Source: an uncultured Prochlorococcus sp.
GTDB lineage: Bacteria > Cyanobacteriota > Cyanobacteriia > PCC-6307 > Cyanobiaceae
Length of the DNA: 64,000 nt
Assembly (NCBI GenBank): GCA_902623195.1
Contig: CACNSV010000003.1
Coordinates: forward strand, 1-64,000
Reading direction: 5' to 3'
Part shown: one piece after another, positions 17,862-22,148 of the stretch
How the letters are laid out: every line of letters begins with the position of its first letter
How positions within the stretch are numbered: position 1 is the stretch's first letter
The notes under the pieces: model-generated
What the model was told of the DNA's origin: nothing
The model's input: the letters and a program-made list of their open reading frames with translations, nothing else
Database searches by the model: none
Translations under genes and position numbers: made by a program

Positions 17862-18872
17862 TTATTTTAGACCAACCAATTTCATAGATAAATCCCAAGT
17901 CTTCTGAGAAAGTTGACTATCAATTATTCTTTTTGAAAGTTTCTGAGAAAATACCTTCCCAACTAATTTTTGTCTATTTCCCCAGCTCCAATGAACTCCT
18001 GACTGAAATAGATCACTATCTGTTGCAACTGAAGCAACCCTTTGACCAGCTAATTTTTCGGTGACGTATCCTCTAGTAATGTATTTCTGAAATAGAGGAA
18101 ATAGTAATCTAAATATCCAAGGAGTATTTCTAAACAACTTACTGTTAGCAACACAACCTGGATAAAGGGAATTACATATAATTTTTTCAGGAGGATATCT
18201 TTTTGCTAATTCTTGAACAGTTATCATATTGCATAACTTACTATCTTTATAGGCTTTCCCAGGTTTAAAATTTTTTCCATTTGCCATACTTATAGGTGAG
18301 AGAAAGCCTCGTTCAAAACCAGCTAAATCTCCTAAGTCAGCAGGTGCTGGAATGGGAATTTTCCCTCCTAATTCAATGTAATTTGCGGTCACAGTTCCCA
18401 GAATGGTGATTCTGGAAGTAAATGAAATATTCTTTCCATTCAAATTAATATCTTTATCAGAGTTAATTAAATCATTAATTAAAAGATTAATTAATAAAAA
18501 GTGACCAAAATGATTAACTGCCATTGAATTTTCAAAACCCTGAACAGATCTCTCTGGGCGCCTCAAACGTGGTTTATAGACTGCCGCATTACAAATAAGT
18601 ATTTTCAACGCATCTTTAAATTTTGTAGAAATTTCTTGGGCACCTTCCCTAACTTTATTTAAATCTGACAAATCAATTTCAATAAAACTAATTTTATTTA
18701 AATCATCTCGACTTAAAAAGCCTGAGGCTGCATCGAGAGCTCTTTTATTCGAACGATTAATTGCAACTACCTTCCAACCAGAAGTAATTAAGGGTTTAAG
18801 GGTATTTAACCCTACTCCAGAGGTAGTCCCTGTAATAAGAACAACTCCTTGTTTCAACTTTTCCACGTGCAT
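17862..18872 (-). CDS. por: Light-dependent protochlorophyllide oxidoreductase
   Basis: A 336-residue NADPH-dependent, light-driven enzyme (LPOR, also called pcr) that performs the same reaction as ChlLNB. It is an SDR-fold protein: dinucleotide motif TGTTSGVG at 15-22, NAAVYKPRLRRPERSVQGFE with the LPOR insertion, and the catalytic YKDSK at 208-212 inside GKAYKDSKLCNMITVQELAK. Start is ATG 18872. Being oxygen-insensitive, it backs up the oxygen-sensitive ChlLNB; the two systems are encoded tail to tail here. Confidence 0.96.
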   Translation of the reverse strand: MHVEKLKQGVVLITGTTSGVGLNTLKPLITSGWKVVAINRSNKRALDAASGFLSRDDLNKISFIEIDLSDLNKVREGAQEISTKFKDALKILICNAAVYKPRLRRPERSVQGFENSMAVNHFGHFLLINLLINDLINSDKDINLNGKNISFTSRITILGTVTANYIELGGKIPIPAPADLGDLAGFERGFLSPISMANGKNFKPGKAYKDSKLCNMITVQELAKRYPPEKIICNSLYPGCVANSKLFRNTPWIFRLLFPLFQKYITRGYVTEKLAGQRVASVATDSDLFQSGVHWSWGNRQKLVGKVFSQKLSKRIIDSQLSQKTWDLSMKLVGLK

Positions 18873-18922: not shown

Positions 18923-19282
18923 TTAACGCCATATTACTCTCATAACGTCACGAGATATCATTTGATCTTGATCCTTCATAAATCTTTGCTGACCTTGATG
19001 TGATAATAAGTTGTCAAATCTTTTTGTTAATTTCTTAAATCTATCTTTTTCGTAAAAATAAGAATCTTTTATTTCTTTTAGTCTTGATAACCTTATTTGA
19101 GTGGTGTTTCCTATTTTAATCAAACTTATAAATGCTAATAAAAATAAACAAATTTTTAATAATAAATAAGTTGTAGTTAGAAGATCTTTTTCTTTTTTTG
19201 AGACTATATTTTTTTTTCGAAATTCATCGTTATTTAAGTTATTTATTATTTTTGAATCTTCAACATATTTATTTAAATTCAT
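18923..19282 (-). CDS. Bitopic membrane protein with coiled coil, unknown
   Basis: A 119-residue protein upstream of por on the same strand (50-base gap). Layout: charged cytoplasmic N-terminus (1-~40), one hydrophobic helix (TTTYLLLKICLFLLAFISLI), then a charged helix likely to form a coiled coil (LSRLKEIKDSYFYEKDRFKK) and a C-terminal DQDQMISRDVMRVIWR that looks conserved. The true start is probably ATG 19282; a TTG exists three codons upstream. The topology resembles FtsB/DivIC-type division proteins, but this is a resemblance of layout only. No function is assigned. Confidence 0.65.
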   Translation of the reverse strand: MNLNKYVEDSKIINNLNNDEFRKKNIVSKKEKDLLTTTYLLLKICLFLLAFISLIKIGNTTQIRLSRLKEIKDSYFYEKDRFKKLTKRFDNLLSHQGQQRFMKDQDQMISRDVMRVIWR

Positions 19283-19513
19283 ATTATGCAAAAAATTAAA
19301 AATTTAAAAAAATTTATTTATATCTTTAGTATTAACATATAAATATTAAAAGCCAAATTTAACAAATTTAAATTTTGAAAAATATGATTAAATTAAAAAT
19401 TTTTAATTTTTGTATTTTTAAAATAGAAAATTACATTCAATCATTTAACAGGCATTTATAAAATATACTTAAAATTACTAGAGAAATTTTTAAACTACCC
19501 TATATAACTAATT
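19283..19513. other. Extremely AT-rich intergenic region
   Basis: About 230 bases between two divergent genes with almost no G or C and many A/T runs. The sequence contains no plausible gene; the longest ATG frame (from 19384) gives about 23 residues and lacks an SD. It must contain promoters for both neighbours, but with this composition -10-like hexamers occur everywhere, so I place none. Confidence 0.5.
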
Positions 19514-20218
19514 TTGATTTATAAGAAGAAAGCATTGATTATTTCGACCGTTAAGTCATCAGGTCATCAACAAATGTCTATTGATATTGATTTATTAAAC
19601 AAAACTATTTCAAATAATAATATTCTTTTTACTTTAAGATTTTACTTATGGGAAGGTGATTGGATTTCAATTGGATTTCACCAAAAGAATTACCCTGAAC
19701 ATTGGAAGGATTTGAAAGAAAAGGGATTAATTAATATAGTTAGAAGGCCCTCAGGTGGTGGAGCAGTTTTGCACTCTGGAGGCATTACTTATGCCTTAAC
19801 TTTTAAGAAACCTGAATATAAGAAATTCAGTTATCAATTTGTAAATATTTGGCTAATAAAAAGTTTCGCTTTGTTAGGTATTACTTTAAAAAATGGATCT
19901 GTCAAAAAAGGGAGCATCAAGGAAAATTGTTTTGGTACAAATTATATTTCTGACCTAGTAGATGAAAATGGAAATAAAAGAATAGGTAGCGCTCAGTATT
20001 GGAAAAAGGGTTCATTTCTACAACATGGAGAGATACAATTAAATCCACCATTTGATTTATGGACAAAAATCTTTGGCCAAATACCCCCTCAACCTTTTGG
20101 TCTGAAATTAAGTAATGAGAAAATTATAAAACACTTAGAAAACTCTTTTCTAGAAAATTATTCTGATTCATCCACAGAAAATATTTTTTTAAAACCTTTT
20201 GAAATTTCTAAATATTAA
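19514..20218 (+). CDS. Lipoate-protein ligase A-like protein
   Basis: A 234-residue member of the biotin/lipoate ligase fold, predicted to attach or transfer a lipoyl or octanoyl group to lipoyl domains. Seen: RRPSGGGAVLHSGGITYALT at 77-96 (the RRxxGGGxVxH motif), and RIGSAQYWKKGSFLQHGEI with the lysine before RIGSAQ that forms the acyl-AMP contact. The frame opens at TTG 19514; the next start-like codon is ATG 19574, giving MSIDIDLLNK, which is also plausible and close to typical N-termini. It overlaps the convergent protease-like gene by 4 bases. Lipoate ligase or octanoyl transferase cannot be separated from sequence alone. Confidence 0.82.
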   Translation: MIYKKKALIISTVKSSGHQQMSIDIDLLNKTISNNNILFTLRFYLWEGDWISIGFHQKNYPEHWKDLKEKGLINIVRRPSGGGAVLHSGGITYALTFKKPEYKKFSYQFVNIWLIKSFALLGITLKNGSVKKGSIKENCFGTNYISDLVDENGNKRIGSAQYWKKGSFLQHGEIQLNPPFDLWTKIFGQIPPQPFGLKLSNEKIIKHLENSFLENYSDSSTENIFLKPFEISKY

Positions 20219-21435
20219 ATATCACCTTTACTCTTCATTAATTTGATTATCTTTGGTAATTCAATTCCTAAAGGATACTTACTTTTCGATTTAATCTTAT
20301 TCAAGATTTCATTAGAAATATTAAAACCTAACTTATTAAGAACAAACAAACCAATATTTTTCCTATCTAAGAATCCCATTGGGATTCCATAAGGATTTGT
20401 TATTAAAATTAATCCTTCATTAGTTTTTTCAATTTTTTCGATAATTTGCCAAAGAGGAGTATTCTCAAAAATGCTTGGGAAGTTATTAATTGATTTATTA
20501 AATTCACTTACTATTTTTAAATCCCATTTTTTAATTGGAATATTCTTCAAAACATCGACGGAAATAAAACCATCCCATCTACCATTTTTAGTTATAAAAA
20601 AATAACTATCTAAATTATTTTCATCTTTTATCAATCTATTAAACTGTCTTAAGGTTAGATCAAATTCAATTTTTCTTATCGGTTTTAATTTTAATTCATT
20701 AATATTCTTAGATTTTAAAATTTTTTCAATTTTTAAATATTGATTATCAGATTTTGAGATATTTATTCCAAATATTGATAATAAACATAATATTAATCCA
20801 TAATAAAAATTTAAACTAAATAGTAAAAAAACACCAATCGTAAGAAAAAGTATTGATAATAAAAGAGTAAATTTATTTAAAAGGATTCTACCTTTATTCC
20901 TGTTGCCAGAATAATACCAAATTACACTTTTGAGAAAATTACCACCATCCAAAGTGCCCACTGGTATTAAATTAAATATTCCAAGAAATAAATTTAAAAC
21001 TCCAACTCTAGTAATTATATTTATGAAAATTTGCTCTTTAGTTTCACTAAGATTACTAATTAAAAATAAAAAGATCGAGGTAAGAAAACATAAGAGAGGT
21101 CTTACAAGAGATATTTTTATATTACCTAATGCATTTTGACAATATTCTTCTATTTGTAAAACTGCGCCAAGGAAAAAGAAGGTAATATTTTTAATTTTTA
21201 CTCCTTCACTAATGCAAATATATGTATGAAAAATCTGATGGAATATTATTGAGCATAATAAAAGAAATGATGTGAAGAAACCTATTATCCAGGCCTCTTG
21301 TTTATTGAATATATCACTTGATGTTAGATTAATTTGATCACTTATACTCCATGAGAATAAGAAAAGGAGAACGATCCAATAAGGATGAATTTTAAAAGGC
21401 ACTCCCCATATTTTTAAAACTTGCCAGCCTCTCAA
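20215..21435 (-). CDS. Site-2 protease homologue lacking catalytic Glu, with CBS-like tail
   Basis: A 406-residue membrane protein of the M50 (S2P/RseP-like) family with an N-terminal hydrophobic half (~1-225) and a C-terminal CBS-pair-like domain (~245-380). The zinc motif HExxH is HQIFH at 66-70: codon 67 reads CAG, so the catalytic Glu is Gln. The next family motif, usually AGPxxS, is VRPLLC. The third, NLIPVGTLDGGN, with the LDG metal ligand, is intact. Zinc might still bind, but hydrolysis is not expected. It may be a pseudoprotease that senses ligands through its CBS domain. Neighbours give no hint. Confidence 0.85.
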   Translation of the reverse strand: MRGWQVLKIWGVPFKIHPYWIVLLFLFSWSISDQINLTSSDIFNKQEAWIIGFFTSFLLLCSIIFHQIFHTYICISEGVKIKNITFFFLGAVLQIEEYCQNALGNIKISLVRPLLCFLTSIFLFLISNLSETKEQIFINIITRVGVLNLFLGIFNLIPVGTLDGGNFLKSVIWYYSGNRNKGRILLNKFTLLLSILFLTIGVFLLFSLNFYYGLILCLLSIFGINISKSDNQYLKIEKILKSKNINELKLKPIRKIEFDLTLRQFNRLIKDENNLDSYFFITKNGRWDGFISVDVLKNIPIKKWDLKIVSEFNKSINNFPSIFENTPLWQIIEKIEKTNEGLILITNPYGIPMGFLDRKNIGLFVLNKLGFNISNEILNKIKSKSKYPLGIELPKIIKLMKSKGDI

Positions 21436-21500
21436 AAATAAACTCCGTTATAGTTATTAATAAGTTCATTCTACCCATTAAAAAAAATTATAATTTGAAA

Positions 21501-22148
21501 ATGTTGGAAGCTAAAACTCTTGTAAAAATTTGCGGTATAACTTCTGTTGATCAAGCACTCCAGATTGCTAAGCTAGGTGCTGATGCAATAGGAGTAATTT
21601 CAGTAAAAGAATCGCCCAGATATGTCTCACCTCAGAAAAAAAAAGATATTTTTAGAAATCTTAAAGAAAATTTTCCACAGGTAAAAAGAGTTTCTGTAGT
21701 AAAAAATATACCTCTAGAAATGATTTCCATAAATTCTTTTGAATTTGAGAATGTCATACAGCTTCATGGAGATGAAGATCTTTCATATTCCAAAAAACTT
21801 CGTAGAAAATTACCTCAAATTGAACTATGGAAAGCGTTTAGGATAAAAGATAGAGAAAATATTAGAGAAATTGAGCTTTTTTCTGATTTCATTGATACTA
21901 TACTTTTAGATTCTTGGAACGAAAAAACATATGGAGGATCAGGAATAAGAATAAATTCTAGTTATCTAAAAGAATTAAATTTCAGCAAGCCTTGGTTACT
22001 CGCAGGTGGAATATCTATTGATTGGCTACAACAAATTCTTATTGACATCAAACCAGATGGTATTGATGTCTCAAGTAGTATTGAAAGCTCCCCAGGGATA
22101 AAAGATTTAAATAAAACAAAGAAACTTTTAGATCTAATTAAAGGATAG
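21501..22148 (+). CDS. trpF: Phosphoribosylanthranilate isomerase
   Basis: A 215-residue TIM-barrel enzyme of tryptophan synthesis that rearranges phosphoribosylanthranilate to CdRP. Seen: LVKICGITSVDQALQIAKLG at the start with the catalytic Cys, VIQLHGDEDLSYSKKL in the middle, LLDSWNEKTYGGSG with the general-acid Asp, and LLAGGIS...DGIDVSSSIESSPGIKDLNK at the phosphate-binding end. The ATG at 21501 is preferred; a TTG two codons earlier extends the frame but adds nothing conserved. It is divergent from the protease-like gene (65-base gap). Confidence 0.95.
   Translation: MLEAKTLVKICGITSVDQALQIAKLGADAIGVISVKESPRYVSPQKKKDIFRNLKENFPQVKRVSVVKNIPLEMISINSFEFENVIQLHGDEDLSYSKKLRRKLPQIELWKAFRIKDRENIREIELFSDFIDTILLDSWNEKTYGGSGIRINSSYLKELNFSKPWLLAGGISIDWLQQILIDIKPDGIDVSSSIESSPGIKDLNKTKKLLDLIKG

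Follow-up and report, generated by a model that had tools for sequence, protein, structure and literature searches.

Does a site-2 protease (S2P) homologue that carries glutamine in place of its catalytic glutamate persist as a working membrane protein, or does the substitution mark a sequencing change or a gene in decay? The question is raised by a gene on the minus strand (positions 20215–21435) of a 64,000-nucleotide stretch of an uncultured Prochlorococcus sp. (contig CACNSV010000003.1, positions 1 to 64,000), hereafter the window. We find it probable that the protein is a CBS-type (group III) S2P whose general-base glutamate disappeared in the common ancestor of the HNLC branch (high-light Prochlorococcus), and that selection has since maintained the protein in the membrane in a form that does not cleave.

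A site-2 protease homologue with glutamine at the catalytic position

The gene encodes 406 residues, in line with a preliminary description of the locus, which gave the open frame and left its strand unstated; the start is TTG. The plus strand contains stops throughout 20215–21435, and the TTG start is common to 161 of 173 near full-length copies in the genus. The protein matches the M50 family PF02163 (E 8.9e-13, 48.5 bits; cut-off 27.2); no NCBIfam family reaches its cut-off, and the Pfam scan finds no PDZ domain, a trait of RseP and group I S2Ps. In place of HExxH, residues 66–70 read HQIFH (21226–21240, minus strand), with CAG as codon 67 (21235–21237), exactly as the preliminary description had reported. 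Both zinc-ligand histidines and the aspartate are present. Specifically, the LDG motif, said to be kept, lies within NLIPVGTLDGG at residues 155–165 (20941–20973, minus strand), where D163 (20947–20949) of TLDGG is the third zinc ligand. The next helix of site-2 proteases carries the motif AGPxxN/S, which is absent here: residues 109–116 read SLVRPLLC (21088–21111, minus strand), with V-R-P-L-L-C at 111–116. With the catalytic HExxH replaced, the protein is an M50 homologue and not a member of the family in the catalytic sense.

The surroundings of the gene are stable. A divergent gene on the plus strand (21495–22148), which we take to be trpF and to encode a phosphoribosylanthranilate isomerase-like protein, lies beside it in 13 of 13 loci examined. 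A convergent plus-strand gene (19514–20218), presumably lipoate-ligase-like, is found in 11 of the 13; the contigs of the remaining two (L073, L074) stop within the gene. In most family genomes asked, chlB is found within a few kilobases, which supports orthology. Between a reductase-like gene (17862–18872) and the lipoate-ligase-like gene, in or adjoining a stretch of 16–20% GC, there is also a 122-residue open reading frame with a TTG start (18923–19291, minus strand), in which one hydrophobic segment can be seen by eye.

Predicted structure of the protein

The AlphaFold model of the window protein (60 rows) has a mean pLDDT of 88.5 and shows seven helices of at least 14 residues at positions 20–241. 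It can be superimposed on mjS2P (PDB 3b4r) with a Z score of 14.6 and an rmsd of 3.7 (215 residues, 26% identity), a relationship also found by profile (E 1e-31), and the S2P membrane layout is therefore kept, as had been claimed. In the profile alignment R112 falls on the Gly of the mjS2P sequence IAGPLVS. The match to SpoIVFB (PDB 8vjl) has a Z score of 12.3 and an rmsd of 13, indicating that the two domains are placed differently.

The C-terminal segment, about residues 243–374 (20314–20709, minus strand), matches CBS-pair folds with Z scores of about 10–11 and MJ1004 by sequence profile (E 4e-4). The fold search thus confirms the CBS-like tail of the preliminary description, for which the Pfam sequence match falls below cut-off (E 0.16). 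For nucleotide sensing by this CBS pair, likewise suggested there, the predicted fold is the one feature that might speak; no canonical ribose-binding signature was seen by eye in the tail.

Gln67 is fixed in the clade of the window

The gene is present in 206 of 266 genomes of the window's genus and in 83 of the 87 near-complete ones, and the region of residue 66 was compared in 184 sequences, one per genome. Gln67 occurs in ten: the window, G024, G256, G257, G262, G264, G026, G263, G265 and G083. The proteins of G024, G256, G257, G262 and G264 are 83–98% identical to that of the window over the parts covered, and those of G026 and G263 are 58% identical. G265 combines Gln67 with Val for the first His (V66), and G083 is placed elsewhere in the tree from the window's clade. 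Each of the five close relatives, and two genomes further away, accordingly have Gln where Glu would have pointed to a change in one strain; a strain-specific change is rejected, since Gln is clade-wide. Compensation by E77 was considered and rejected as well: other genera, too, most often carry Glu at that position, and in G265 and G083 it is occupied by Gln.

For Gln, the six closest genomes, all of the window's clade, use CAG, and G026, G263 and G265 use CAA. The ChlB tree unites G026, G263 and the six close genomes in one clade (96/85) that brings together HNLC1-like and HNLC2 genomes. The earliest branches of the S2P tree are the Gln lineages, with G026/G263 apart from the six close genomes and the Glu clade nested; the data do not reject a topology that constrains the Gln genomes to a single clade (p-AU 0.13 with G265, 0.18 without). 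Given the ChlB clade and the unrejected constraint, the simplest account is a single Glu-to-Gln event in the branch of the six close genomes and G026/G263.

The branching order of the S2P tree would suit a different history, in which the genus as a whole started out with Gln, acquired together with G112R, and the main high-light clade later recovered Glu. We regard this as very improbable, for the two results just given stand against it, the branches are long and a dead site is unlikely to be restored. Even less probable, to the point of being negligible, is a sequencing or assembly artefact. Single-cell or metagenome assemblies do predominate, and the G024 copy has frameshifts, but the same codon is found in independent assemblies and Q67 recurs across projects. 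In particular, the G026 copy is identical to L329 of Prochlorococcus marinus bv. HNLC2, itself identical to L050, and the G256 copy matches the single-cell genome AH-287-E15. CAG in six genomes of the clade, reached by a G-to-C change that is a transversion, also argues against an error, and the independent records refute an artefact for Q67.

Two records are irregular in themselves. The G024 copy (L072, G024:C1:399680-400898), the nearest to that of the window, has frameshifts and several stops in a one-contig assembly and looks like an assembly error. In L332, which comes from the single-cell record HOT208_60m_813I02, the stretch with the best match does not reach the active site, and the copy is possibly frameshifted.

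Catalytic residues are lost repeatedly

Catalytic-residue loss extends well beyond Q67 to many Prochlorococcus lineages, a recurrence that the preliminary description missed and that favours its pseudoprotease reading. At least one of H66, E67, H70 and D163 has been lost in 19 of the 184 genus sequences, and 165 retain all four. H66 is replaced by Tyr in G231, G090 and G223, the Tyr being common to G231 and G090; H70 is replaced by Arg in G069, G029, G039 and G022; and D163 is replaced by Asn in 2 of 179 sequences (G111, G140). The minimum number of changes on the tree within the genus is 3, 2, 4 and 2 at positions 66, 67, 70 and 163, respectively. The losses are thus repeated and independent, and the sequences suggest about 10 lineages with such a loss in the genus. 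In a second small-genome genus (g2, L401–L412), the first His is lost in 11 of 12 copies (Arg in 8, Tyr in 2, Cys in 1), among them L412 with CELGR and LNGG, while the twelfth has HELGH but LDGS; the GP of AGPxxS is retained in 12 of 12.

Orthologues and a second M50 protease served as controls. The outgroup comprised 40 orthologues from 21 other genera, g2 included; the 37 outside g2, from 20 genera, keep H, E, H and D in every case. RseP, the other M50 protease, was compared in 71 rows, including three from g2 and a second piece of the G026 gene. H, E and H are kept in 67 of 67 genus genomes examined, and the Asp wherever it is covered (19/184 versus 0/67, Fisher's test, p 0.003, without correction for relatedness). 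Whether a second active M50 protease accompanies the gene, a point raised by the preliminary description, can be answered to the extent that 16 of the 19 lesioned genus genomes have an intact RseP; RseP was not found in the window's own genome (G000, 77% complete), G069 or G256. In the HNLC2 scaffold, a frameshift or stop that is probably an assembly error divides the RseP gene (L350, L353; G026:C1:318240-319233).

Other motif changes are older than Gln67

In AGPxxS, the Gly is conserved in 40 of 40 outgroup rows; on the tree, 178 of 179 genus rows have Arg and one has Lys. R112 is found in 181 of 182 genus sequences covering the position, those with HExxH included. Similarly, LPLDGG has become mostly GSLDGG and HELGH mostly HE[VI][FL]H in the genus, again also in copies that carry Glu, indicating that none of the three changes is a consequence of Gln. 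The loss of AGPxxS noted in the preliminary description is therefore real (VRPLLC in the window) but not tied to Gln, being genus-wide and older. R112 itself (AGA/AGG; 21100–21102 in the window) puts an almost unvarying charge within a membrane helix throughout the genus, at a motif that is otherwise catalytic.

The gene is under purifying selection

Pairwise GY94 maximum likelihood gives an omega of 0.09–0.20 for Gln pairs against 0.09–0.14 for Glu pairs; the near-identical pair L022–L012 (omega 0.26) was left out as uninformative. The membrane and CBS halves have omega in similar ranges, and g2 pairs have values of 0.08–0.19. The dN/dS check called for in the preliminary description therefore gives no sign of relaxed selection, the values in Gln pairs being low and much like those in Glu relatives. 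A pseudogene is rejected for the window copy by its open frame and low omega. Of the 43 positions that are invariant in the outgroup and whose residue the genus retains, 19 are entirely unchanged within the genus. A permutation test did not show the four catalytic columns (11 changes in all, against a mean of 1.6 per column) to be significantly less conserved than the other columns invariant in the outgroup (P 0.20), nor than charged, aromatic, Gly and Pro columns only (P 0.09). This result and the 165 copies with all four residues weigh against extending inactivity to the whole genus. A catalytic residue has thus been lost clade-wide from a gene under purifying selection, which is the mark of a pseudoprotease. 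The earlier choice of a membrane pseudoprotease over a sequencing change or decay holds up on the relatives' Gln and the low dN/dS, with the loss of catalysis inferred from SpoIVFB E44Q.

Two further explanations have to be weighed, and we consider each of them unlikely. The gene could be decaying, with a dispensable protein accumulating lesions ahead of deletion; several lesions do lie on terminal branches, and the family is missing from part of the genus, though from few of the near-complete genomes. Against decay are the open frames and the low omega of lesioned pairs in both the HNLC clade and g2, the 19 unchanged positions, and the retention of the gene by streamlined genomes. To much the same degree of doubt, the protein could still be a zinc protease of weak or altered activity, with the water held in place by Gln or by some other residue, or an enzyme active under certain conditions. 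This would agree with the retention of all three zinc ligands in the window protein and of HExxH and LDG in most genus copies. However, the same substitution abolishes the activity of SpoIVFB, as stated in the excerpt of PMC11486902, and zinc ligands are lost outright elsewhere (Y66, V66, R70 and N163, and R66 in g2).

A possible role in binding without cleavage

SpoIVFB E44Q is completely devoid of proteolysis and still co-purifies with Pro-sigmaK, and its structure is superimposable on that of the wild type (PMC11486902, in excerpt). From this behaviour, the window protein would be expected to bind and not to cut. Specifically, the Q67 protein would perform no cleavage, yet its cleft would admit a transmembrane segment or pro-sequence. 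Catalytic inactivity in the window's clade is well supported, and inactivity throughout the genus may be put forward as a hypothesis. At the membrane, the protein could hold or tether a regulator or an earlier substrate, and the CBS pair could serve for docking or as a switch. RbcR is the one candidate partner that can be named, a speculative one taken from Synechocystis Sll0528; a tethering role of the kind that the binding of RbcR by Sll0528 suggests would need no cleavage. Six of the 10 genomes asked, two close Gln relatives among them, have one LysR-type gene each, which may encode RbcR and which in G026 is in two pieces; the search did not find it in the window's incomplete genome, and these counts speak against RbcR as the partner.

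A broader scenario, which we offer tentatively and would not rate as high as even odds, is a change of job from cutting to binding in small-genome Prochlorococcus. It would be marked by the genus-wide Gly-to-Arg change in the AGP motif (high-light genus) or by Arg, Tyr or Cys in the zinc site (g2). The catalytic residues would then have become dispensable, with about ten losses, one of them a Glu-to-Gln change that forms a natural substrate trap and was fixed in the HNLC branch of the iron-poor ocean, and the cleft and CBS pair would serve as a membrane tether for a regulator. In a single-copy gene of abundant ocean phototrophs, the fold is kept and catalytic residues are repeatedly dropped, so that binding may have been separated from cutting in nature. 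This suggests an important non-proteolytic role for cyanobacterial CBS-type S2Ps.

Comparison with known systems

Pseudoproteases are known among the rhomboids, as iRhoms. Among the matches listed in our literature search, no S2P pseudoprotease was found in bacteria and none in Prochlorococcus, and no paper joined site-2 protease, cyanobacteria and CBS domain. Bacillus subtilis SpoIVFB is, as a group III protease with an S2P core and a CBS domain, built like the window protein, with one CBS domain in place of a pair. Its E44Q form (PDB 8vjm) carries the same Glu-to-Gln change as Q67, but the natural form of SpoIVFB is active, whereas Gln is the natural state of the window protein. The membrane core is also shared with mjS2P of Methanocaldococcus jannaschii (MJ0392), which differs in having the catalytic HExxH and AGPLVS against HQIFH and VRPLLC; full-length mjS2P has a CBS domain, truncated for the crystal (PMC11486902, in excerpt).

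RseP, a group I S2P of the same genomes, belongs to the M50 family too, with HExxH mostly as HEMGH and an intact LDG, but is a separate gene without CBS and is unaltered in every genus genome examined. Synechocystis Sll0528, a putative orthologue of the window protein, is a cyanobacterial S2P with a regulatory role. It binds the LysR regulator RbcR, whose regulon is lowered when Sll0528 is lost (excerpt of PMC12014562); unlike the proposed pseudoprotease, it is an active protease, the recombinant form of which cleaves beta-casein (excerpt of PMC4284730).

A known parallel is EGY3, which is of a different subfamily from the window protein, plant-only and located in the thylakoid, and which is likened here by its published description. 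EGY3 is an S2P homologue counted as proteolytically inactive, yet retained and conserved (excerpt of PMC9355673). An S2P pseudoprotease is thus already known from plants, and the Prochlorococcus protein would, on the sequences at hand, add a bacterial case.
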